A stretch of DNA of 64,000 bases, from contig JAFXUX010000009.1 of the NCBI GenBank assembly GCA_017524805.1, forward strand, positions 62,001 to 126,000, in the 5' to 3' direction. The position numbers were made by a program, and so were the translations under genes. The notes beneath the pieces are model-generated. The model made no database searches. It was not told the origin of the DNA and saw only the letters and a list, made by a program, of their open reading frames with translations. This stretch comes from Candidatus Methanomethylophilaceae archaeon (GTDB lineage Archaea > Thermoplasmatota > Thermoplasmata > Methanomassiliicoccales > Methanomethylophilaceae). Below are positions 35,572-49,565 of this stretch, one piece after another (the stretch's first letter is position 1; each line of letters begins with the position of its first letter).

Positions 35572-36321
35572 GAAAGCTTCGCGCAATGTTGCTCCCTCCA
35601 GCTTCCCGCTGGAATCGGAGCAGGAATCCTCTTCCGGGAACCTCAGATGGACGTAGGGCAGCACTCCGAGACATTTCATGCCCGTGAGCTCTTCGATCCT
35701 ATCCAGGCCCTCGCCCAGAATGGATGCGTCCCCTCTGAACCTGTTTATTACGAATCCTTTGAGCCTCGGCTTCAGATGGTCCGGGATCAGCCTCCAAGTC
35801 CCATAGATGGCGGCGAATACCCCTCCCCTCTCGATGTCGCCGACTATTATGGCCGGTATATCTGTCGCTTCCATAAGGCCGGTATTCGCCAGATCCTTGT
35901 CCATCAGATTGATTTCGGCAGGAGAGCCGGAGCCTTCGCAGATGATGAAGCCATGCTTCTCTGAGAGCCTCCGATACGCTTTGAGCGCCTCGCCCATGAC
36001 GGCTTCCCTGTCAAGCTCCTTCCCTTTCCCGTAGTCCAAGTAAGGCCGGCCGTTGACTACCGCCTGCATCATGCCTCCGCCGCTTGGTTTGAGAAGGACC
36101 GGATTCATATCGGTGGCTGGCTCCAATCCCGCGGACCAAGCCTGGAAAGCCTGACCCATCCCGATCTCTCCCCCATCCTTCGTCGCGTACGAATTCAGAG
36201 ACAGATTAGACGCCTTGAACGGGACGGGATCCTTGCCTTCCCTCATGAAATGCCTGCAGAGCATCGCGCAGAGGGTTGTCTTTCCCGCAGCCGAGGATGT
36301 GCCCAGAACCAGCAGCCTCAT
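35401..36321 (-). CDS. CobQ-like synthetase domain protein without glutaminase domain
   Basis: The protein of about 306 residues matches the N-terminal ATP-binding half of cobyric acid synthase (CobQ/CbiP). It has a P-loop GTSSAAGKTT (residues 7-16), KASNLSLNSYAT (Mg/ATP contact), EGSGSPAEINLMDKDLAN, and a conserved NRFRGD. The glutamine amidotransferase domain of the neighbouring full-length CobQ is missing. The last 40 residues overlap the ThiS-like gene and look non-homologous, and the frame ends in TAG. Its ATG overlaps the CobQ stop, so both are cotranscribed. It may act with another amidotransferase, or be a degenerate duplicate. Confidence 0.75.
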   Translation of the reverse strand: MRLLVLGTSSAAGKTTLCAMLCRHFMREGKDPVPFKASNLSLNSYATKDGGEIGMGQAFQAWSAGLEPATDMNPVLLKPSGGGMMQAVVNGRPYLDYGKGKELDREAVMGEALKAYRRLSEKHGFIICEGSGSPAEINLMDKDLANTGLMEATDIPAIIVGDIERGGVFAAIYGTWRLIPDHLKPRLKGFVINRFRGDASILGEGLDRIEELTGMKCLGVLPYVHLRFPEEDSCSDSSGKLEGATLREAFLSNIDELTDAAEASGFDFASLEEIARSRSPSRSDPHRRYLGIPGDRRVHRHRFPAY

Positions 36322-38132
36322 GCTTTCCCCTCCAATATGGCCATCAGCTTTCCCATGTCGAGATTGCTCTCGAAAGCGTTCGCCAGCGCCTCCAAACTCT
36401 CCTCCAAGGATTCGCCATAGCTCTTCATCGACATATCCGCGGCGGCTTCGCCGAAGAATGACAGGAAATACTTTCTGAACGGCTGGGCATCGAAGCATCC
36501 GTGGAGATATGTGCCGAACAGCTTCTCATCCTCTCTGACCGAACCTTCGTTCCAGGACGGCGCGAACATGCTGTCTATCCTGAACAGCGGCTCCTCCGTG
36601 ACCTCGGTCTGGCCCATGTGAAGCTCATATCCGGTCAGATTCCCTCCCTTGCCTTTCAGCAGGACGGCATCGCGGTTGGCCACCGTCTTTTTGTATTCGG
36701 CGAAGACGGTTTTGTTCCCGAAGAATCCGAGACCTTCGATGACAGCCTTCTTCCCGCCTTCTATCCCCAGCGAATCATCCATCGTCGCGCCCATCATCTG
36801 ATATCCGCCGCATATCCCCAATATCGGCAGCTTTCCCCTGAGCTCCGAGAGCCTGTCTGCGATGCCTCTCTCGCGCATCCAGAGGTAATCCAGAACCGTG
36901 TTCTTCGTCCCGGGAAGTATGACGGCGCTGACCCCGTCCAGATCCTTCGGTGATTCGACGTAGACGACCTGTATTCCGTCCAGGACGAGAGGGTCGATGT
37001 CGGTGAAATTGGCTATGCGCGGGAATTTCACGACGCCCACGCGTATCCTGCCTTCGCCTTTGCCCTTGGAATCCCTGAGAGCCTCGGAGTCCTCGGAAGG
37101 CAGGGCCACATTCACGTGAGGGATTATCCCGATGACCGGGATGCCTAGGATTTCGCTCAGAGTGCCGGCGCCGGAGCGCACTTTCTCGGGGTCCCCGCGG
37201 ACGTTGTTCAGGATTATGCCTTTGATTCTTTTCCTGTCCTTCTCCGGGATCAATTCAACCGTCCCCAGCGCATATGCGTAAGCGCCGCCCCATTCCACGT
37301 TGACCACCAGGATCACGCTGGCATCGGCGATCTCGGCCGCCTTCATGTTGGCGATGTCCTTGTCGTAGATGTTGATCTCGGCAGGGGAGCCGGCGCCCTC
37401 CATTATCACGAAATCATACCGCTTCCTCATGAAATCGACGTGCTCCCTCACTATCTCGATCCCAGGTCCCGGAACGAATTCGCTGTAGTATTCTTTGACC
37501 CTGTAATCGGCGAAAGACTTCCCGCAGACTATGACCTGCGATATGTCGTCGCCTTTGGGCTTCAGAAGGATGGGATTCATGTGCGCGTCCGGGTTCGTGA
37601 GGCCGGCAGCCTGAGCTTGGAGGGTCTGTATCATCGCGATCTCGGCGCCCCCGCGGGTGACCTTGGAATTCAGGCTCATGTTCTGGGATTTGAAAGGCGC
37701 GACGAGGTACCCTTTCCTGTGCAGGATCCTGCATAATGCGGCCACCGTGACCGATTTTCCGGCGTCGGAAGTCGCGCCCACGACCATCAGAGCCTTCCCC
37801 ATGCGCCAATAGTTCTTTTTCGTCTCCTCGAATATCCCTCTGAGACGTTCGTCGGAATAGTCGGTGATGCCCATGCGCTTTATCTCGGACATTATGTGGG
37901 AAGCGACCTCCGGCCTGTGGATGAAGAGGCAGTCAGAGCAGTTCCAGACTTTCCTCCCCCTTTTCCCGTCCAACTCCCACCCCAGATCCTCATCGCCGCA
38001 AGGGTAGAACGGGCAATAGCAGAAGGTGCAATCCTGGCCGGTGAAATGGCTGGGATGGTAATCGCATGCGAGATTGGGACCGATATGGCCCCTTTCGATC
38101 TCCTCGTTCACCTTCTTGCCTATGTTCTTCAT
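36318..38132 (-). CDS. cobQ: Cobyric acid synthase with N-terminal Cys-rich domain
   Basis: The enzyme amidates four side chains of adenosyl-cobyrinic acid a,c-diamide in cobamide synthesis. An extra N-terminal domain (residues 1-90) carries CTFCYCPFYPCGD and CSDC, matching the small Cys-rich domain (PF04071) often linked to cobalamin genes. Then come the synthetase P-loop GATSDAGKS, the KSQNMSLNS and EGAGSPAEINIYDKDIAN motifs, and the amidotransferase domain with catalytic Cys in LGICGGYQMMG and His in TYLHGCFD. ATG 38132 lies about 30 bases after a TATA box (TATTTATTATGG), fitting leaderless transcription. Total about 604 residues. Confidence 0.92.
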   Translation of the reverse strand: MKNIGKKVNEEIERGHIGPNLACDYHPSHFTGQDCTFCYCPFYPCGDEDLGWELDGKRGRKVWNCSDCLFIHRPEVASHIMSEIKRMGITDYSDERLRGIFEETKKNYWRMGKALMVVGATSDAGKSVTVAALCRILHRKGYLVAPFKSQNMSLNSKVTRGGAEIAMIQTLQAQAAGLTNPDAHMNPILLKPKGDDISQVIVCGKSFADYRVKEYYSEFVPGPGIEIVREHVDFMRKRYDFVIMEGAGSPAEINIYDKDIANMKAAEIADASVILVVNVEWGGAYAYALGTVELIPEKDRKRIKGIILNNVRGDPEKVRSGAGTLSEILGIPVIGIIPHVNVALPSEDSEALRDSKGKGEGRIRVGVVKFPRIANFTDIDPLVLDGIQVVYVESPKDLDGVSAVILPGTKNTVLDYLWMRERGIADRLSELRGKLPILGICGGYQMMGATMDDSLGIEGGKKAVIEGLGFFGNKTVFAEYKKTVANRDAVLLKGKGGNLTGYELHMGQTEVTEEPLFRIDSMFAPSWNEGSVREDEKLFGTYLHGCFDAQPFRKYFLSFFGEAAADMSMKSYGESLEESLEALANAFESNLDMGKLMAILEGKA

Positions 38133-38266
38133 ATGATCGACTTGATAAGCATCTGCGCCATAATAAATAGCACGGACGTCCGCGAAGAAATTTCGCCTGA
38201 TTATTGGGCGGACGCGCCATGCGAGCATAGTGCTGGTTTTATTTACAGGCCCGATATCGGGACGAT

Positions 38267-39433
38267 ATGGGCGATTTCAAATTCATCCACTGCGCCGACA
38301 TCCATCTCGGCTCGCGCTTCAAAGGCGTGGAGACCGAGGATGCCGCGGAAATGCTGAGGATGAGAGAAGCACCGGCTAAATCGCTCGGAAAAATAATCGA
38401 TCTCGCCTTGTCGGAGAAGGCCTCGTTCATCGTCATATCGGGAGACTTATTCGAGAAAACTGCCCAACCTTCCGACCGCAAATTCTTCTGCGAGGAAGCG
38501 GCGCGCGCGAAGATCCCCATCTTCATCTCCAAAGGGAACCACGACGTCGAAAGGCCATGGGATTCTGCGATGCCATATCCCTCAAACGTCAGAGTGTTCC
38601 CCACAGAACCCGAATCGATCTTCCTGAAGGCGAACAGCACGGAAGTCGAGGTCGTAGGCATCAGTTTCTCAGGTAAGCGGGAGAACCGCAACATCGTCTC
38701 GATGCTGTCCGGTACCCCCGGAATATTCACCGTGGCATGCGTCCACTGCTATGTGGAAGAGATCGGCGAAGGCCACCCCACAGCAGTATGCAGCATGCAG
38801 GATTTCCTTGGGAAGAACGTCGATTACTGGGCGCTTGGCCATGTCCATAGGCGCGTAGTCATCAGGGAGCACCCCCATGCGGTATATCCGGGGAATGCCC
38901 AAGGCAGAAACGGCAAAGAAACCGGGCCAAAAGGCGCCTATGTGGTGGAAGTATCGGAGGGGAAAGTCTCAAAGATGACGTTCGCAGAGACCCAGAGCAT
39001 ACAGTGGAGGAACCTAAGAGCGGACGTCACGGACCTGAGCTTTGAAAGGCTGAGATCGGAGCTGTCCAAGGTGTTCTCTCCGGGAGACATACTGTCGATA
39101 TCGTTCAGAGGGTCCGGAGCGCTCGCGAATCACATATGCTCCGACCCTGGAGCTTTCTCCGCGGAGCTCCAAAAATCATTGGGAACAAGGATCTGGGAGA
39201 TCTCCTGCGACAAATGCTCGAGAACCATTGAGGATGATCTGCAGAAAGATGTGTCTGACGCTGAAAAAGCGCTGATATCCGGCGGGCGCCAGACCTTAGA
39301 GGAAGCTTTGGACGGCGCCGGATTCCTGAGAGCCCACAGAAACTCCGTCGCATCTATGTCTGAAAAAGAATTGATCAGAGCGGCGAATGAGGCTGCCTCC
39401 TATCTTCTGAGGGAAATCGGAGGGCATAAATGA
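38267..39433 (+). CDS. Metallophosphoesterase, Mre11/SbcD/YhaO-like nuclease
   Basis: The 388-residue protein has the phosphoesterase motifs in order: DIHLGS (near residue 10), GDLFEK (near 60), GNHD (near 90) and GHVHRR (near 190). A C-terminal capping region follows. The genuine archaeal Mre11 lies with herA-nurA; this protein instead pairs with a YhaN-like ATPase with a four-base overlap, the layout of bacterial yhaO-yhaN. It is probably a DNA-end processing nuclease. A TATA-like TTTTATTTAC lies about 25 bases before the ATG. Confidence 0.88.
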   Translation: MGDFKFIHCADIHLGSRFKGVETEDAAEMLRMREAPAKSLGKIIDLALSEKASFIVISGDLFEKTAQPSDRKFFCEEAARAKIPIFISKGNHDVERPWDSAMPYPSNVRVFPTEPESIFLKANSTEVEVVGISFSGKRENRNIVSMLSGTPGIFTVACVHCYVEEIGEGHPTAVCSMQDFLGKNVDYWALGHVHRRVVIREHPHAVYPGNAQGRNGKETGPKGAYVVEVSEGKVSKMTFAETQSIQWRNLRADVTDLSFERLRSELSKVFSPGDILSISFRGSGALANHICSDPGAFSAELQKSLGTRIWEISCDKCSRTIEDDLQKDVSDAEKALISGGRQTLEEALDGAGFLRAHRNSVASMSEKELIRAANEAASYLLREIGGHK

Positions 39434-41445
39434 GAATAGTGCGCGCGACCGTGGATCTGTACGGGCCGATCGAAGATCGCGTGTTCAAGTTCGCATCTGG
39501 CCTGAACGTCTTCTCCGGGCCGAACGGATGCGGAAAGACCGCTTTGGCGGAATTCCTTGCCGCATGCATGGTACCATCCGCCGGAAAGGCATTCCCTGAG
39601 CGCGGAAAGGACGATTCCGGAAGCATGACGGCCGATGACGACGGAACGGAGGCTTCGATAAGGATCAGAGGCCCGTACCGCATCGGACGCGTCCCTGAAT
39701 GCCTTCTGAGCATGGGTACCGATCTCTACAGAGGCGTATACTTCATCGGAAAGGATACTGTCGAAGACCTGTCGTTCCTGGAGAGCGCTTTCGCCGGGAC
39801 GAAGCATTCGACGCATCCTGAGCTTGCCATGGCTTCTGAGAAGGCCAGAGAAGCTGCCGAGTGTGCTTTGGGACAAGAGCTCGAAGAGATCGACGTTCTG
39901 ATCGCGGAGACGGAATCCGCCGCCGAAAAGCTCGAAGAAGAAGCCAACCGCTTCGGTGAATATGCGTCGCAGGCCGAGGCCATAAGAAGAATGATCCGCA
40001 TGGAAACCGAAGATTCGCCGGAAGCCGAGGAACTCAGAGAGCATACGAACCTCCGCGAGACATACAGGCCGTACTACGACCGCCTCTCCGATCTGGCGGC
40101 CTCCCGCAAAGCACTCGAAAGCTTCGAATGGGTAGGAAGAAGCGATGTCGCCGTCTACCAGGAATTGGTAGAGAAACTGAGGGAAGCAACGGAAGCGTCG
40201 GAATCCATGGATGAGATGATGTACGGACCGCTGACCGAGCTCGGAAACAACGGCCCGAACGATATTTTTGCCCATGCCACTGAAATAAAGAAATTGGCCG
40301 AGGGCAGGGAATCCTACGCCAGAAACTCCAAAGAGCTCCGCGACAGGAAAACAGAGCTGGCAGGAGCCAAAATGGGCATCCCCAAAAAGAAAACGACCCT
40401 GTTCGGGCTCGGAGGCGCAAACAAAGGCGAAGCCTTGGACATACCCGCGCTGACCCGCCGCATAGACGACCTGACCCGCATGACGGAATCCTACGAGGAA
40501 TCGGCGTCCAGCGTTTCGTTCGCCCTCGGCATCATGATGACGGATACTGAGCAGGCGGTGGCGGAGATGGTCCGCATGATGAACGCGGCGGACATCCTTA
40601 GCAAGAACGGCGACGCCATGAACGATTCGAAAGCCAAGCTGGAGAATGCGAAGATTGCGCTCGAAAGATTTCTAGAGCGGTTTGGCGGGGAGAAAGGGTT
40701 CGCCGAATGCGCCAAGAAGACGGAGGATGCGCGCGACATCGACAGCGAGACCTCGGAGATCAGAAGGATCCTGAGCGAAGCCGGGCTGAACCCAGATGAG
40801 ACCATATGCGCGACGGAATATCTGGGCGCGGCGGGAAACGTTGACAACCTGAAAAAGAGGCTATATTACCTCGAAGGCAAGATGGCCAGGATACTGGGCT
40901 CAGGAGAGCTGGAGTCGCTTATGGACAGGAAATCCGCCCTGAAAGCCAAAAGGGATTCCGTCATCCGCAAAGGCATCTCCTACGCGCTGGCTTACGCTAT
41001 CGCCAACAGAATCGGCGAAGGGGAATCCGCTGGGATCCGGCCGGATCTGGATGTCGCCAGCGGCTATCTGTCAGAGATGGCAAGAAGGGAGTGCAAGATC
41101 TCCTGGGAGGACGGCTTCCGCATATCAGACGGCGGCCCTCCGCAGACCATGGCATCCGTCGGCAGCGGAATGAGGATCTTGGCGTCTATATCGCTGAAAC
41201 TGGCCGCGGCCGAATCCGCATCCTCCTGCGACATCCCCATGATATTGGACGAGCCGTTCGCGGGATTGGATACTGAGAGCAAATCAGGCGCCTGCAGAGC
41301 CATACGCAACGCGGCCAGGAAGCTGCAGATCATAGTCTTCACATGCGACCGCGAGACGAACGAGATATTCTCTTCGATGAGCGGAGCGGCGATAATCAAT
41401 ATGGGAATGCCTCACCGCAATGGAACCCCCCACGCAACTTTATAA
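39430..41445 (+). CDS. SMC/Rad50-like AAA ATPase, YhaN type
   Basis: The 671-residue protein has Walker A GPNGCGKTA (residues 31-39), a long central coiled coil rich in Ala, Glu and Arg (residues about 130-520), and near the C terminus a signature-like segment followed by Walker B MILDEPFAGLD (near residue 610). There is no CxxC zinc hook in the coiled coil, unlike Rad50, so it is nearer to YhaN-type proteins. It would power the nuclease encoded just upstream. Confidence 0.88.
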   Translation: MRIVRATVDLYGPIEDRVFKFASGLNVFSGPNGCGKTALAEFLAACMVPSAGKAFPERGKDDSGSMTADDDGTEASIRIRGPYRIGRVPECLLSMGTDLYRGVYFIGKDTVEDLSFLESAFAGTKHSTHPELAMASEKAREAAECALGQELEEIDVLIAETESAAEKLEEEANRFGEYASQAEAIRRMIRMETEDSPEAEELREHTNLRETYRPYYDRLSDLAASRKALESFEWVGRSDVAVYQELVEKLREATEASESMDEMMYGPLTELGNNGPNDIFAHATEIKKLAEGRESYARNSKELRDRKTELAGAKMGIPKKKTTLFGLGGANKGEALDIPALTRRIDDLTRMTESYEESASSVSFALGIMMTDTEQAVAEMVRMMNAADILSKNGDAMNDSKAKLENAKIALERFLERFGGEKGFAECAKKTEDARDIDSETSEIRRILSEAGLNPDETICATEYLGAAGNVDNLKKRLYYLEGKMARILGSGELESLMDRKSALKAKRDSVIRKGISYALAYAIANRIGEGESAGIRPDLDVASGYLSEMARRECKISWEDGFRISDGGPPQTMASVGSGMRILASISLKLAAAESASSCDIPMILDEPFAGLDTESKSGACRAIRNAARKLQIIVFTCDRETNEIFSSMSGAAIINMGMPHRNGTPHATL

Positions 41446-41680: not shown

Positions 41681-43357
41681 ATGAATATCGATCCGAATAC
41701 AACGAAATACATGGTTAAAGCGAAGATCACCGCCGACGGGATCATTGAGAAACCTGACGTCGTCGGCGCCATCTTCGGCCAGACCGAGGGGCTTCTTGGC
41801 GACGAGCTCGACCTCAGAGACCTCCAGAAATCCGGAAGAATCGGCAGGATAGAGGTGGAAGTCGTCTCGAAAGGAGGCAAATCCGAGGGTATCATCTATA
41901 TGTCCTCCAGTTTGGACCAGGTCGAGACAGTCATCCTCGCATCCGCTCTGGAAACGGTCGACCGCGTAGGGCCCTGCAAAGCGGGCATCCGCGTTCTGGG
42001 AATCGAGGACGTAAGGGTCACAAAGAGGGAGAAGGTCGTCGAACGCGCCAAAGAGCTTCTCAATGAGCTCATCAAACAGTCCAAGGGATCCAGCTACGAC
42101 CTCATGGACAGCGTCAGGCAGAGCGTCCAGATAGAGGAAATTACTTCGTACGGAAAAGACAGGTGCCCCGCCGGGCCCGACGTGAAGAATTCGGACACCC
42201 CCATCATCATCGTCGAAGGCAGATCCGACGTCCTCAACCTTCTGAAAGCCGGCATCAAGAACGCCATTGCCGTAGAGGGGACCAACATCCCCAAGACCGT
42301 CCAGGACCTTTCCAGAGAAAGGGTCGCCACCGCTTTCGTGGACGGGGACAGAGGCGGAGAGCTGATCCTCAGAGAGCTCTTCCAAGTCGCCGAAGTCGAT
42401 TTCATCGCCCGCGCGCCTCGCGCCCACGAGGTCGAGGAGCTCACTTCCAAACAGATCATAAAATGCCTCCGCAACAAAATCCCCGGCGACCAATACATGG
42501 AGATGAACGGCCTCATCACCGAGGAGGGAGCACTGGAGGAAGAGCTGGAAGAGCCCGAATACGAGTCGGAATACCGCGAGCGCAAAGAGAGGGACAGGCG
42601 CGACAAGTACGAGGACCGCGACGACGAGAGGCGCGACCGCAGAGACAAGCGCGATGAAAGCCGCCGCGACAGGAAGGACAGGCGCGACAAGTACGAGGAC
42701 CGCGACGACGAGAGGCGCGACCGCAGAGACAGGAAGGACAGGCGCGACAAGTACGAGGACCGCGACGAGGAGGAAGACCACAGGAAGCCTCGCTTCGACG
42801 ACTCCGCCATCGACAAATACAAGAAAAAGAAGGACGAAAGCGAATCCCTGTCCATGATCGAAGGGCCCGAGGCCCCGGCCATGATCGGTGCGGCCGAGGA
42901 GAAGATCCTCATAGAGGCCGCCGAAACCCCCGATATGATCGCGGAGCCCGCCAAAGAGATCGATGATTCCAAAGAACCTGTATCCGAAGAGAAGAAGCCT
43001 GCCGAGAAACCTAAAACCAGAAGGACTCTCCGCGGAAAGAAGAGCTCCGACAAGGTTCTTACCCCCGAGCAGACCGAGTTCCGCGACATGCTCCTGGATC
43101 TCTCGACTACCCACAACGCGAAGATCCTGGGCGAGGGCAACGCTCTGATCAGAGAGGTTGCAGTCAAAAACCTGGTCAATTCCCTCAAAGAGGATTCCGG
43201 CGGGGCCATCGCCATCGTCTTCGACGGCGTGATCTCCCAGAGGATCCTCGACATCTCCGCCGAGAAAGGCATATACACCGTGATCGGAACCCGCAAAGGA
43301 AACATATCCAAGATGCCCGCGGAAATCACAATCCTCACCAAAGAGGACCTCTACTGA
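41681..43357 (+). CDS. dnaG: Archaeal DnaG-like protein with charged repeat insert
   Basis: The 558-residue protein contains a TOPRIM domain with IIIVEGRSDVLNL (near residue 181) and AFVDGDRGG (near 226), as in archaeal DnaG, which is associated with the exosome and has primase activity. The N-terminal 150 residues and the final 90 (from EQTEFRDML) fit the archaeal family. Between them lies an insert (residues about 297-375) almost wholly Arg, Asp, Glu and Lys, built of a repeated RRDKYEDRDDERRDR unit, then a Pro/Glu-rich linker. Family members are usually 400-450 residues. The gene after it follows within three bases. Confidence 0.93.
   Translation: MNIDPNTTKYMVKAKITADGIIEKPDVVGAIFGQTEGLLGDELDLRDLQKSGRIGRIEVEVVSKGGKSEGIIYMSSSLDQVETVILASALETVDRVGPCKAGIRVLGIEDVRVTKREKVVERAKELLNELIKQSKGSSYDLMDSVRQSVQIEEITSYGKDRCPAGPDVKNSDTPIIIVEGRSDVLNLLKAGIKNAIAVEGTNIPKTVQDLSRERVATAFVDGDRGGELILRELFQVAEVDFIARAPRAHEVEELTSKQIIKCLRNKIPGDQYMEMNGLITEEGALEEELEEPEYESEYRERKERDRRDKYEDRDDERRDRRDKRDESRRDRKDRRDKYEDRDDERRDRRDRKDRRDKYEDRDEEEDHRKPRFDDSAIDKYKKKKDESESLSMIEGPEAPAMIGAAEEKILIEAAETPDMIAEPAKEIDDSKEPVSEEKKPAEKPKTRRTLRGKKSSDKVLTPEQTEFRDMLLDLSTTHNAKILGEGNALIREVAVKNLVNSLKEDSGGAIAIVFDGVISQRILDISAEKGIYTVIGTRKGNISKMPAEITILTKEDLY
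42580..42790 (+). repeat. In-frame direct repeats inside dnaG
   Basis: Three imperfect copies of a unit encoding RRDKYEDRD(D/E) and RRDRRD segments lie in tandem, with near-identical DNA such as GCGCGACAAGTACGAGGACC at about 42600, 42681 and 42744. The spacing is 81 and 63 bases, so the copies differ by whole codons and keep the frame. Confidence 0.75.
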
Positions 43358-43359
43358 AA

Positions 43360-44892
43360 ATGATCGAAATGACAGAGAAAATAGCCGCAGAATCCTGGAG
43401 CGTCGTCGAGAAGATGCGCTCCACCGAAGAGATCCTCATCCCGTCCGATCCCCTTGACAGGGTCCTCGGACAGGAGGAAGCGATAGATCTCGCCAAAATA
43501 GCAGCCCGCCAGCGCAGGCATCTGCTCTTGGTGGGTCCGCCGGGCACTGGGAAATCCATGATAGCCCGCGCCCTCTCCATGAATCTCCCGACACCCTCCC
43601 ACGAAGTGAGGGTCGTGGAGAACCCAGAGAACGCCGAGAGGCCCTTCATCGAGATCCTCGACAGAGAGGAGGTCGAAAAGGAAGAGGCCCTCAGAAGCGA
43701 GCCCATAGGAGTGCTGGAAGATCCGGAAGATGCGCCTCCCGGCGTGGCGGAGCACCTCGGATACAGATGCAAAAACTGCGGGAAGATATCCCAGCCAACC
43801 GATCTCAGCTGCCCCTACTGCAACTACAGCAAAATGAGCGGAGGAGGGAGAGGCAACCCGTTCCAGGACCTGATGGGAAACATCGGCGGCCTCCTCGGCG
43901 AATCCGTCGGCCAGCTGACCGCCGGAAAGGAGAAAGTCCGCACCACCCGCACCACGAACGGTTACGAGGAGACCGTGATCTTCGAGCGCGCCGGAGAGAA
44001 GATACGCATGCTCGACCAGGCGGCAATCGACAAGAGGAGCGAGCTCACCCGCACATCCAACGAGAAGACCTTGGTCAAGCTCAACAGGAACCCCTTCGTC
44101 CTCGCCACAGGAGCATCGGAGACCGAGCTGCTGGGGGACGTGAGGCACGACCCATACGGAGGCCACGAAAAGCTCGGCACCCCAGCGTACGAAAGGGTCA
44201 TCGCGGGATCCATCCACGAAGCCCATGAAGGCGTGCTGTTCGTGGACGAGATATCCCATCTCGGAGACCTCCAGAGATACATACTCACCGCGATGCAGGA
44301 GAAATCCTTCCCCATCATGGGCAGGAACCCCCAATCCGCGGGAGCCAGCGTCAAAGTGGAGGACGTTCCGTGCGACTTCATCCTGGTGGCCGCATGCAAC
44401 ATGCAGGACATCGAGAACATCCTGTCCCCTCTCAGATCCAGGATCATAGGGAACGGATACGAGATACTCGTGGACATCGCGATGCCCGACAACGACCGCA
44501 ACAGAGCCAAATACGCCCAATTCGTGGCCCAGGAAGTCAACCTTGACGGGCACATACCCCACGCGGACATAGAGGCGGTAAAGCTCATAATCGAAGAGGG
44601 CAAACGCCGCGCCAGAGACGACAACCAATCCAACTCCCTCACCCTCAGGCTCAGGGAGCTGGGAGGGCTGATAAGATCTGCCGGAGACATAGCGGTGATG
44701 GAAGGCTCCGAGCTCATCACCGCCGACCACATACGCAGAGCCCTCAGAAGATCCCGCCCCGTGGAGGACCAGATCCGCGAAAGGTACGGATCGTACACCT
44801 CAGGCCTCTCCAAAGACGTATCTTCCGCACAGAAGGAAAGATCCGGATACTATTACCAGACAGACCACGTCGACGACAGCATGTTCTCGTGA
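43360..44892 (+). CDS. LonB-like AAA+ ATPase lacking the protease domain
   Basis: The 510-residue protein has the LonB-type AAA+ module: Walker A VGPPGTGKS (near residue 59), Walker B GVLFVDEISHL (near 290), a sensor region AACNMQ and a C-terminal helical lid ending in SRPVEDQIRERYG. Where LonB carries two transmembrane helices it has instead a zinc ribbon (CKNCGK...CPYCNY, near residues 136-154) and a Gly-rich linker. The Lon serine-lysine protease domain is absent: the frame stops shortly after the lid. It may be an unfoldase or remodelling factor. It is cotranscribed with dnaG. Confidence 0.87.
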   Translation: MIEMTEKIAAESWSVVEKMRSTEEILIPSDPLDRVLGQEEAIDLAKIAARQRRHLLLVGPPGTGKSMIARALSMNLPTPSHEVRVVENPENAERPFIEILDREEVEKEEALRSEPIGVLEDPEDAPPGVAEHLGYRCKNCGKISQPTDLSCPYCNYSKMSGGGRGNPFQDLMGNIGGLLGESVGQLTAGKEKVRTTRTTNGYEETVIFERAGEKIRMLDQAAIDKRSELTRTSNEKTLVKLNRNPFVLATGASETELLGDVRHDPYGGHEKLGTPAYERVIAGSIHEAHEGVLFVDEISHLGDLQRYILTAMQEKSFPIMGRNPQSAGASVKVEDVPCDFILVAACNMQDIENILSPLRSRIIGNGYEILVDIAMPDNDRNRAKYAQFVAQEVNLDGHIPHADIEAVKLIIEEGKRRARDDNQSNSLTLRLRELGGLIRSAGDIAVMEGSELITADHIRRALRRSRPVEDQIRERYGSYTSGLSKDVSSAQKERSGYYYQTDHVDDSMFS

Positions 44893-45390: not shown

Positions 45391-47412
45391 TCATCTCTTC
45401 AGTCTGGAAAGCCCGATCAGAGCGACGAACAGGATGATTATCCCGATGGCGGCGTATTTCAGCCAACCTCCGGAACCGCTTCCGTCATCGGAATTCTGGC
45501 TCTCGCCGGATGGCTGCACCACGTATTTCTCTGAGGCGCTGGCCGAATCTCCGGAGGAATCGGATACGGTCACTTTCAAGATATGAGAACCTTCCTTTAC
45601 CGTGACCGTAGCGCTCGGGACCTTGGTGGTCTTGGTCTGGCCGTCGCCGAAATCCCAATCGTAAGTGTACGTTCCGGCAGGGGTCACGCTGACCTTGAAC
45701 GTCACCGTCTTTCCAAGCTCGTATGTCTTGTCGGTGGTCGTTATCGTGACGGAAAGACCCTCGTACGCGTAATTCTTATCGAAATCGCTCTCGAATACGC
45801 TGGCGAAATAGCCGGCCACATCCGAGGAAAGTATCGCGACGCCCACTTCCCTGTTGGTAGTGAACGAAGGGTAAGTCCAATTCACCGACGACACTATGGC
45901 AACGTCATCGCAAACCAATCCTTTGTTGTGCACATAGGGCTTATCCATGGCGGCGGCATCTATCATGCTGCCCTTGTTTACGCTCTCGACGTAATTTTCA
46001 ACATAAACCCGATCGTTTTCGCTTCCGGAATTCAGGATGAGCCTGACGTCTGCCCCCGAAATAGCTTTGGAATTCAGATGATACAGAGGCGAAGAAGACT
46101 CGGTCCAGTCCTCATATGACTGGTCCAAAGATTGCTGCTGGACATAGATGCGATCGACCGCCCTGTCGATCCAATACATCTCGCTGTCCCACGAGTTGTT
46201 AGGCGATAATATGGGGCAGACCGACGCCGAATAAGACTTGAAATTCCCGCTCTGCGGCTTGCTGTACCGAAGACTCGCTGGGGTGACGTTGGAATAGCTC
46301 ATCTCAGAGAAATCTCTGACATCCTTGCCGCTGATGTCGGCTGAGAAAACGCCCTCCATATAGGAGGCATAATCCTTGCTCTCGATTATAGCTCCCCATC
46401 CGCGGTTGCCATAGTCTTCGCTGTATGTGCCGTTCATGATTTTGCCGTTGAGATTGTCTACGGTCCAGTTCTCGGAAGTGACGATGGTCGTCTTGCCGTC
46501 GACGATAGCGTATTTCGCATGGACGAGATTGAAGCGGTCTCCGGACATCCCTCCGATCAGTTTCACCTCGCCGCCTGCGTTCACAAGCGCCTTCAAACTG
46601 GGTGCGACCCCGGACTGATCGGATTTGTAAGGGTTGGATTCCAGCAGGAGAGTGACTTCGACTCCCTTCTCGGCCAAATCGCACAGGAGCGCGTACATGT
46701 TCTTGTTGGTGAGCTGATACATCTCGATGTGCACCGAACTCTTGGCAGAGCTTATGGCCTCATAGATCGGGACCCCGCCGCTGTCAGGGAAAACGAAAGG
46801 TGTGACGGTGGCCCGATATTGCAGGCTGGGATCGAACTCATATCCGGCCGACGCGCCGTTTGTGATCTTCCAGTCAGAGGCTGTGTCAGAATCCACGGAG
46901 CCGTTCCTGACCGCGTAAACGTCGCTTCCAGAAATCGTTAAAGAACTCCCGCTCCAGATCGATGCGTCGTCGATGGTCTTGCTGCCGTAGCACAATGCAT
47001 CCACACAGAAGCCGGAGGAATCATACAGGTAAACCTGGTCCCCGCCATTTGCGAAGAGATATTGGCTATCCGCTTTCAGAACGGCGCTGTCGACGTCGAT
47101 CACATTTTCGCGGTCGGCAAAGGAGCTCTTCGGACTGCTGTCCGGCCTGACGACAGTGACCGAACTCTTGGCGTCCAGCCTATAGTATGAGAAAACGCAT
47201 TTGCCTTCTCCGTCGCTCAGATACCAACCGTTCAGGTCGACGGCTTTTTCGCCGTAATTGGTCAATGTGACCCCTTCCCAATCGAAGGGATTGAACTCGC
47301 TGATGAGCACCCCGTACGAGACATCCGCATCCGAACCGGATTCGGAAATCTGAGTCGCGCATAGCGCCGCGATCAGAGCCGCCGCGAGGGCCGATAGCTT
47401 CTTCGCATCCAT
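45391..47412 (-). CDS. Secreted phospholipase-D-like protein with lamin-tail and PKD domains (copy 2)
   Basis: The 673-residue protein has an N-terminal signal or anchor helix, a lamin-tail-like domain (residues about 30-150; LISEFNPFDWEGVTLTNYG and LNGWYLSD), then two phospholipase D-like halves with the H-x-K-x4-D motifs HAKYAIVDG (near residue 300) and HNKGLVCDD (near 500). Next comes a PKD-like domain (YTYDWDFGDGQTK), and last a C-terminal transmembrane helix (YAAIGIIILFVALIGL) and a basic LKR end. It is therefore probably exposed outside the cell. The substrate may be lipid, nucleic acid or another phosphodiester. It is paralogous to the next gene upstream. Confidence 0.85.
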   Translation of the reverse strand: MDAKKLSALAAALIAALCATQISESGSDADVSYGVLISEFNPFDWEGVTLTNYGEKAVDLNGWYLSDGEGKCVFSYYRLDAKSSVTVVRPDSSPKSSFADRENVIDVDSAVLKADSQYLFANGGDQVYLYDSSGFCVDALCYGSKTIDDASIWSGSSLTISGSDVYAVRNGSVDSDTASDWKITNGASAGYEFDPSLQYRATVTPFVFPDSGGVPIYEAISSAKSSVHIEMYQLTNKNMYALLCDLAEKGVEVTLLLESNPYKSDQSGVAPSLKALVNAGGEVKLIGGMSGDRFNLVHAKYAIVDGKTTIVTSENWTVDNLNGKIMNGTYSEDYGNRGWGAIIESKDYASYMEGVFSADISGKDVRDFSEMSYSNVTPASLRYSKPQSGNFKSYSASVCPILSPNNSWDSEMYWIDRAVDRIYVQQQSLDQSYEDWTESSSPLYHLNSKAISGADVRLILNSGSENDRVYVENYVESVNKGSMIDAAAMDKPYVHNKGLVCDDVAIVSSVNWTYPSFTTNREVGVAILSSDVAGYFASVFESDFDKNYAYEGLSVTITTTDKTYELGKTVTFKVSVTPAGTYTYDWDFGDGQTKTTKVPSATVTVKEGSHILKVTVSDSSGDSASASEKYVVQPSGESQNSDDGSGSGGWLKYAAIGIIILFVALIGLSRLKR

Positions 47413-47437
47413 GCACCCGAATTGCTGGACATGATAA

Positions 47438-49441
47438 TTACATATCGCCTCTGACCTGCTTGTAATGCCTCGCCAGGGCATATACAACTGCCAAAACAAT
47501 AGTCACGGCCGCTAAAGCAAAATATGAGGGAAGGAGACCGAAACCATCCAGCAGACCGGAGATCCCACCCGCGATTGATGGGTCCTTGTCGGAGGAATAA
47601 GCGGCAGACGCGGTGCAGGAGAAACCCGATCCGTCGGATACCGTAACCACCATCATGTGCTCCCCTTCAGAAGGCCAGAACGACATGCGCGGAATCGAGG
47701 TGACCCTCACCCTGCCATCCCCCAGATCCCATTCGTAGGAATAATCGCCGATGGCCGACATCGTTACCGAGAAAACGGCCTCCTCCCCATAGCGATACCT
47801 GCTTTTCATCTCCGTTATCTCGGCCGTGAATCCCTCATAAAGATAACATCTGGCATGATCCCTGAGGAAAGCTTCGGCGAAGAATCCTGCCACATCCGCC
47901 GACTCTATCGCCACGCCGAATTCCCTGTTCATCGAGAACGAATTGTCCGTCCAATTCACTGACGCGACGATGGCGACGTCATCGCATACCAGCCCTTTAT
48001 TGTGGACGTATGGGACCCTCATCGATGCCGCCTTGATCAGCGTCTCGGCGCAAAGCTCATCCGAATAGCTTCCGGCCGATAATTCGCAGATTATCAGCCT
48101 GGTGTCCACGCCTCTGGAAGCGGCCTGAGCCATGCACCAGATAGGCGAGCCTTCGGCGACGTCCCTCATGGACGACCCTATGCTTTGCTGCTGAGAGTAT
48201 ACCCTCTCCGCGGAGATGCCCATGTAATATGATTCGGCTTCGAACGAACCGTCCGGAGAAAGGAAAGGCAGCACGGACGCTTGGAATGCTTCGCCATATT
48301 CGCCTTCCGGAGATGAATAAACGAGATTGCCGGCTGCCCTCGCATTCGGATACGCATCTACGAATTTCCTGACGTCTCCGTAACCCATGTCGATGTCGTT
48401 GGAGAAAATCTGCTCCATGAAGAACGCCAGGTCTGCGCTGTCTATTACGGCGCCCCACCCTCTGTTTCCGGTATCGTCCCCGTAAGAGCACGGACGGACG
48501 TTGCCGTTCAGATTGTCTGACGTCCAATTCTCGGTCAAAATGATGGTCCTATACCCGTCGATGATTGCGTATTTGGCATGCATATATGGGAAGCGCTCGC
48601 CGTCGCCTCCTATCAGATATATCTCGCCCCCGTGGTTCGCTAAAGCTTTCATCAGAGGCAGATAAGCTATCAGATCGATCCCAAGAGGATTCGCTTCCAG
48701 AAGGAGCGTGACATCTACTCCCCTATCCTCCAAATCGCACAGAAGGGAGAATATATTCTTGCTGCTGAGCAGATAAAGCGCTATCTGCACCCTTTCCTCG
48801 GCTGCTTCCAATGCCCTGTAGATGGGAACGCCTCCGCTGTCTGGGAACAGGAAGGGGGTCACTTCTGCCTGATACGTGATTTTAGGATCGAAATCGACTT
48901 CGGTAACGCCCGGACGGCGGGTTGCCCAATCTTCCGCGGTATTGGTGTCCCCTCCGACCCTGAGCGTATAGTATCCCTTTTTAACATCGGCGGGAGGCCC
49001 GGACCATATGTCTCCCTCATCGATCTTCTTGTTCCCATAGCAGACGGCATCGATCACCGCCCCATCCTTCATCAGATAGATCTCGTCGCCGGTATTGTTG
49101 AGCACAAGGGAGCCTTTGCCCTTTGAGAATCCTTCTTCGCCTAGAACTACGATGTGGTACCTTCCGCCGAACGATTCGCATTTCGGATCGGATGAGAATG
49201 CGACTGTCGAACCCGCGGGAATGATGAACGATTCTTTGAATGCCCAAGTCCCTTCTCCATCTGTCAGGGAAAATTCAAAAAGATCGGCGGTTCCAGGACC
49301 TGGGTTGGACACTGCGATGGCTTCCCCATAGGGATCGAAAGCACGGATCAGCAGAGTTGGCGAAGCCCCGTCAGAATCCCATGATACAGAAGCCGGAATC
49401 AGGAGCATCAGCAACACGACCAAGGCCATCTTAGCGTCCAT
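47438..49441 (-). CDS. Secreted phospholipase-D-like protein with lamin-tail and PKD domains (copy 1)
   Basis: The 667-residue protein has the same order as its downstream paralogue: signal helix (MALVVLLMLLIPASVS), lamin-tail-like domain (residues about 25-150), two H-x-K-x4-D halves (HAKYAIIDG near 290 and HNKGLVCDD near 490), PKD-like domain (YSYEWDLGDGRVR) and C-terminal membrane helix (YFALAAVTIVLAVVYALA) with a basic end. Both H-x-K motifs are followed by the S/T-x-N element (TENWT, ASVNWT). The two genes are 25 bases apart in tandem, a local duplication followed by clear divergence. Confidence 0.85.
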   Translation of the reverse strand: MDAKMALVVLLMLLIPASVSWDSDGASPTLLIRAFDPYGEAIAVSNPGPGTADLFEFSLTDGEGTWAFKESFIIPAGSTVAFSSDPKCESFGGRYHIVVLGEEGFSKGKGSLVLNNTGDEIYLMKDGAVIDAVCYGNKKIDEGDIWSGPPADVKKGYYTLRVGGDTNTAEDWATRRPGVTEVDFDPKITYQAEVTPFLFPDSGGVPIYRALEAAEERVQIALYLLSSKNIFSLLCDLEDRGVDVTLLLEANPLGIDLIAYLPLMKALANHGGEIYLIGGDGERFPYMHAKYAIIDGYRTIILTENWTSDNLNGNVRPCSYGDDTGNRGWGAVIDSADLAFFMEQIFSNDIDMGYGDVRKFVDAYPNARAAGNLVYSSPEGEYGEAFQASVLPFLSPDGSFEAESYYMGISAERVYSQQQSIGSSMRDVAEGSPIWCMAQAASRGVDTRLIICELSAGSYSDELCAETLIKAASMRVPYVHNKGLVCDDVAIVASVNWTDNSFSMNREFGVAIESADVAGFFAEAFLRDHARCYLYEGFTAEITEMKSRYRYGEEAVFSVTMSAIGDYSYEWDLGDGRVRVTSIPRMSFWPSEGEHMMVVTVSDGSGFSCTASAAYSSDKDPSIAGGISGLLDGFGLLPSYFALAAVTIVLAVVYALARHYKQVRGDM

Positions 49442-49565
49442 GCAATCCGATTTCCGATCCGAAGGATAAGCGATTGCGTCTTTCCCTAAGATTGCTAAAA
49501 TGGGCCCGCTATCAATGGAAGCTACGTTCCGCAAGATTTATACGAATCGCGCATCTCAAGACGGC

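Follow-up and report, generated by a model that had tools for sequence, protein, structure and literature searches.

We found that the gene directly behind dnaG in the window (the whole 64,000-nucleotide stretch of archaeal DNA analysed) encodes a relative of LonB that may be a proteasome motor not described before, with a link to DnaG. That the product is a conserved, soluble, LonB-related AAA+ ATPase with an intact core and a zinc ribbon, without a protease and linked to dnaG, is well supported. The first-pass annotation missed its C-terminal tail with an invariant penultimate aromatic residue, a feature that favours proteolysis in trans over a lack of proteolysis. Our main reading, to which we give a probability of about 45%, is that the protein is a soluble unfoldase of the LonB family that docks on the 20S proteasome by this tail and is tied to DnaG. 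The features discussed below are located in Table 1.

Table 1. Positions of the ATPase gene, its parts and the adjacent dnaG in the window
Feature	Position	Strand	Remarks
dnaG (archaeal DnaG primase/exosome subunit)	41681..43357	+	NF003108, 514 bits
LonB-like AAA+ ATPase, protease domain absent	43360..44892	+	510 aa plus stop; ORF intact
Presumed Walker A, residues 59-66, GPPGTGKS	43534..43557	+	Invariant except residue 63
Insert, residues 100-242, at the site of the LonB membrane helices	43657..44085	+	Helix, zinc ribbon, Gly-rich linker, predicted beta meander
Zinc ribbon, C137-x2-C140...C151-x2-C154	43768..43821	+	Sequence pattern
Presumed Walker B, residues 292-297, D296 and E297	44233..44250	+	D and E invariant
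LonB-type AAA+ lid, residues 401-476	44560..44787	+	Pfam LonB_AAA-LID
C-terminal tail, residues 477-510, where LonB runs on into its protease domain	44788..44889	+	
C-terminal Met-Phe-Ser, penultimate aromatic, HbYX-like	44881..44889	+	Y/F at -2; PAN and Cdc48 tails as controls

The first-pass annotation had recognised the AAA+ module and lid as LonB-like, and the searches agreed. The LonB model TIGR00764 was the best named match of the ATPase (356.4 bits, E 3e-106), with a score below the equivalog cut-off of 516.6 bits, and Pfam LonB_AAA-LID matched residues 401-464 with 29.9 bits, above its own cut-off. The relatives in the PDB were the LonB structures 3k1j (E 6e-86) and 4zpx, which aligned over residues 15-100 and, separately, over residues 243-476. 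The motifs that we take to be Walker A and Walker B, together with the positions presumed to be the sensors and the arginine finger, were conserved in the family as in LonB. In addition, a stretch reading ELLGDxRHDPYGGH was conserved in the family where LonB has LLGDVRHDP; it is compatible with translocating pore loops, and we assume it to be a putative pore loop. The closest named relative, a protein from a Methanomassiliicoccaceae MAG, showed 96% identity to the ATPase across the full length, which suggests a genome of the Methanomassiliicoccales lineage. The structure model of the full-length ATPase was poor (mean pLDDT 59.5) and thus says nothing on the tail or the pore. A scan for promoters and terminators gave results near chance.

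The protease domain, annotated as missing at first pass, is indeed absent. Lon_C was not among the 25 of 40 Pfam families listed for the ATPase, and the LonB tetrapeptide GDSA was present in 25 of 25 LonB rows of our alignment versus none of the 121 rows of the family. The single Lon_C domain of the genome lies inside a complete, genuine LonB on contig 31 (TIGR00764, 818 bits), with which residues 245-476 of the ATPase share 51% identity. Genuine LonB also scored above the cut-off in all 25 genomes checked, which were chosen from both Thermoplasmatota and Micrarchaeota. The search for a separate protease-domain gene or a genuine lonB, which had been suggested as a check, thus ended at a full LonB holding the sole Lon_C. 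This placement rules out a sequencing error or a split protease gene, and the presence of that LonB rules out a genome devoid of it.

At the place of the two transmembrane helices of LonB, the ATPase carries a cysteine-rich insert. The strict C-x2-C...C-x2-C pattern was found in 78 of the 80 Thermoplasmatota rows, the remaining two keeping four cysteines with altered spacing, and in 41 of 41 Micrarchaeota rows, versus 0 of 25 LonB rows. Membrane-helix hydropathy, defined as a Kyte-Doolittle 19-mer value of at least 1.6 within the first 320 residues, was reached in none of the 121 family rows versus all 25 LonB rows. Both the replacement of the helices by a ribbon and the solubility of the protein, proposed at first from a single sequence, are supported by these counts. 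Sequence searches with the insert returned only weak zinc-ribbon matches, and its structure model (mean pLDDT 70.6) had no match in the PDB at E <= 0.001. The open reading frame, the family-wide ribbon and the missing Lon_C and GDSA together show that this form of the ATPase is no product of chance or of faulty sequencing.

A family profile built from 13 members was searched against two phyla, Thermoplasmatota and Micrarchaeota. The ATPase was recovered in 148 of 389 Thermoplasmatota genomes at E <= 1e-144, clearly separated from LonB, whose matches reached 1e-86 at best, and in 64 of the 146 genomes of Micrarchaeota at E <= 1e-100. It was present in all 39 genomes of the window's family, in all 17 others of the order and in 74 of the 84 remaining class members (130 of the 140 class genomes in total), as well as in 18 of the 249 Thermoplasmatota genomes outside the class. 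We built an unrooted tree of 146 rows, comprising 80 Thermoplasmatota members (the window included), 41 Micrarchaeota members and 25 LonB rows taken only from these two phyla. A branch with full support (SH-aLRT 100) divided the family from LonB, and the Thermoplasmatota and Micrarchaeota members were grouped with supports of 97 and 77, respectively. The branches separating them from LonB were long, with 1.17 and 1.08 changes per column. Judged by its sequence, the ATPase belongs to an ancient family of paralogues distinct from LonB. The earlier proposal of a protein derived from LonB therefore stands as to the relationship, whereas the derivation itself is plausible and unproven, because the unrooted tree shows two sister groups. 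The annotation had also allowed for a standard and already characterised form. The form is indeed widespread; as to characterisation, no description of the family was found in the open-access literature, which lacks most subscription journals.

The ATPase starts 2 bases past the stop codon of dnaG. We read 80 loci (12 + 68), mostly one per genus and including two pairs with identical proteins, and found a same-strand dnaG match upstream in 77 of them, with gaps of -34 to +158 bases in 76 loci and 971 bases in one. The other three are L105, which has only 145 bases of upstream sequence, L113, with no dnaG within 3.9 kb, and L012, which belongs to Micrarchaeota. Among the Thermoplasmatota loci having upstream sequence, dnaG was therefore upstream in 77 of 78, making the coupling noted at first pass far stronger than a single window could show. 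No other neighbour cluster occurred in more than 21 of the 80 loci, leaving dnaG alone as a conserved neighbour in Thermoplasmatota. Of 40 further Micrarchaeota loci, 10 had a same-strand dnaG upstream (nine within 0.45 kb, one at about 1.7 kb), and one had dnaG on the opposite strand. These ten loci are spread over both main Micrarchaeota branches of the tree, suggesting that the link is probably old and was partly lost there. Mere co-occurrence with dnaG was discarded as evidence in Micrarchaeota, being uninformative where dnaG is near-universal (142 of 146 genomes at E <= 1e-20). A Lon-like ATPase goes unmentioned in the available part of a gene-context study of archaeal dnaG neighbours (PMC2643942).

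Several other features of the neighbourhood were observed. The DnaG of the window has a long Arg/Asp/Lys/Glu-rich tract between its TOPRIM part and its C-terminus (42551-42797), which consists of tandem repeats of 21 and 42 bases, and many Thermoplasma-type DnaG proteins are about 100 aa shorter. Immediately before dnaG, in the same orientation, lie genes for a Mre11-like phosphoesterase and a Rad50/SbcC-like ATPase (38267-41445), and a Rad50-like gene was found near the dnaG-ATPase pair in 10 of the 80 loci. Farther out, a CobQ-like amidotransferase (36318-38228) contains an N-terminal cysteine-rich small domain (PF04071) within the same protein. On the minus strand, two adjacent genes at 45391-49534 encode large proteins in which PLD-like, lamin-tail and PKD domains occur, and the pair is probably a tandem duplication.

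The tails of the Thermoplasmatota members are 30-42 residues long and end in x-(Tyr/Phe)-x. Residue -2 was aromatic in all 80 rows (62 Tyr, 18 Phe), which represent 78 distinct proteins from 25 taxonomic families. The background frequency among 483 neighbouring ORFs with a minimum length of 150 aa was 5.4% (26 ORFs), dnaG products as a matched control gave 3 of 72, and the top share among the other neighbour clusters with at least 5 members was 4 of 6. Entropy over the last 35 residues was lowest at position -2 (0.77 bits), the next lowest value being 1.94. We consider the tail a likely docking peptide, and the odds that its dock is the 20S proteasome would lie somewhat under even. A PIP-box-like PCNA motif (Q-x6-YY) was sought in the tail by eye and rejected, position 4 being mostly charged or polar.

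Known proteasomal ATPases of the same phylum served as controls. All 36 PAN tails read (27 + 9; two PAN loci were unreadable) fitted (M/A/L)-(F/Y)-x and were mostly -MFA or -MFG. Of 12 Cdc48-type proteins, 10 ended in -LYx or -AYx: all eight from genomes of one PAN-less family (f8) had -LYx, two more had -AYR, and two were without the motif. In the genome of the window, PAN ends in -MFV and the ATPase in -MFS, and all 15 ATPase tails from the window's family follow a hydrophobic-aromatic-x pattern. Outside this family, most tails have Gly or Ser at -3 (Gly/Ser-Tyr-X), with Gly-Tyr-x the commonest variant; across the 80 rows, residue -3 was Gly in 30 and Ser in 22. Most tails are therefore not strict HbYX motifs. 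PAN tails remain -MFA in several families in which the ATPase tail is -GYx, and thus residue -3 does not vary together in the two proteins. The proteasome activator PbaB of P. furiosus ends in Gly-Tyr-Leu, and removal of its tail abolished 20S activation, according to the available part of that report (PMC3605417). Glycine at -3 is thus not disqualifying, though not strict HbYX. The C-terminus of the Micrarchaeota members reads [ED]-[VTI]-x and lacks an aromatic residue, and some of these members lie beside dnaG, so docking cannot hold for the whole family. Their C-terminus (L169-L208, whole loci) is conserved in its own way, often as -GPETA or -EVA.

In the docking reading, the ATPase would form a hexameric ring like LonB. 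Its ribbon domain would capture clients, which could be DnaG or proteins sitting on nucleic acid bound by DnaG, and the ring would thread them. The tails would exit at the face where LonB bears its own protease ring and dock in the pockets of the 20S alpha ring, as PAN and Cdc48 tails do, so that the built-in proteolysis of LonB would be replaced by proteolysis in trans. DnaG would then be a partner, an adaptor or a client of the unfoldase. The 20S alpha subunit was found in all 64 genomes (59 above the cut-off). Among 78 genomes, 32 had both the ATPase and PAN, 10 the ATPase only, 24 PAN only and 12 neither (Fisher p 0.45); replacement of PAN, for which a see-saw between the two was expected, was therefore rejected. 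This independence from PAN also counts against docking, as do the Gly or Ser at -3 in most tails and the missing aromatic in Micrarchaeota. The archaeal 20S-binding ATPases named in the available part of a review are PAN, Cdc48 and AMA (PMC4192671), and the portion of ProEnd available, a resource listing archaeal HbYX proteins, does not name this family (PMC11475706). In the accessible part of a Thermoplasma chromosome proteomics study, DnaG, VAT and both 20S subunits are listed together (PMC7325993). A further-reaching version, a further archaeal proteasomal ATPase beside these three that arose from LonB by swapping the protease for a 20S-docking tail and the membrane anchor for a zinc ribbon, and that is tied to DnaG and supplies the proteasome with proteins associated with primase or RNA, is tentative, and we lean slightly against it.

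Nearly as good as 20S docking is a role in remodelling DnaG without proteolysis, which we regard as possible, if clearly on the short side of even odds. In the manner of helicase loaders and MoxR-type ATPases, the ring would load, unload or reshape DnaG on DNA or RNA, with the ribbon or the tail binding DnaG. The position of dnaG as the sole conserved neighbour in Thermoplasmatota fits such a role, as do the 10 of 40 Micrarchaeota loci, from both branches, in which dnaG lies upstream of an ATPase whose tail lacks the aromatic. Binding of nucleic acid or protein is common among zinc ribbons, which is also consistent with it. DnaG is present on isolated chromosomes of Thermoplasma acidophilum in the same partly available study (PMC7325993). 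However, remodelling alone leaves unexplained why, within the same genomes, the Thermoplasmatota tail resembles the PAN and Cdc48 tails.

It is unlikely that the ATPase is instead a motor for RNA-protein complexes bound to the archaeal exosome, with DnaG as a cap subunit. Other archaea have DnaG as a subunit of their exosome, as stated in the part available of an earlier report (PMC4227792). However, among the 19 ATPase-carrying genomes of the outer families, 12 passed the Rrp41 cut-off and seven did not (G020, G029, G036, G072, G076, G042 and G080), and in five of these seven, G020, G029, G036, G076 and G080, dnaG is still directly upstream of the ATPase (L107, L110, L112, L117 and L114, respectively). 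G042 has no dnaG within 3.9 kb (L113). The gene pair, being kept without a qualifying Rrp41, thus seems not to need the exosome, with the caveat that the draft genomes are incomplete. Rrp41 was above the cut-off in 52 of 64 genomes overall, most others falling only slightly below. Most of the outer genomes failing for Rrp41 showed a weak RNase PH-type match within a long PNPase-like ORF (assigned to PNPase from length and score), and a PNPase of bacterial type may stand in for the exosome in the five genomes that keep the pair. A dominant-negative or regulatory subunit that mixes into LonB rings is very improbable: the two proteins share an AAA+ family and genuine LonB was present in each of the 25 genomes checked, but the diverged core (the two long branches given above) and the absent membrane anchor make shared rings unlikely.

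If the tail does dock on 20S, a motor of the Lon clade would have switched from cis to trans proteolysis, giving a rare look at compartmental proteases trading parts. Thermoplasma-type archaea, the source of the model 20S proteasome, have no PAN, and the ATPase would be a second candidate motor for them beside VAT. Furthermore, DnaG, the main role of which in archaea is still debated, would be linked to protein turnover. Should docking fail, the role of archaeal DnaG would still become directly testable through an AAA+ partner kept beside dnaG across the phylum.

Among known systems, the ATPase shares with archaeal LonB the AAA+ core and lid, and both proteins have their insert at an equivalent site of the ATPase module. 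However, it has a zinc ribbon and a predicted beta meander for the membrane helices, has no Ser-Lys protease domain, scores below the TIGR00764 cut-off and falls in a separate clade. With PAN, Cdc48 (VAT) and AMA, it has in common a penultimate-aromatic C-terminal tail on an AAA+ ATPase and a coexisting 20S proteasome. It differs from these in its LonB-type clade, its zinc-ribbon insert, the frequent Gly or Ser at -3 and its link to dnaG, and its binding to 20S is putative. PAN, with a coiled coil, an OB N-domain and a PAN-type AAA module, is another gene in the same genome, whereas the ATPase best matches the LonB type. PbaB has a Gly-Tyr-x C-terminus like the commonest tail of the family, but it is a non-ATPase of unrelated fold.
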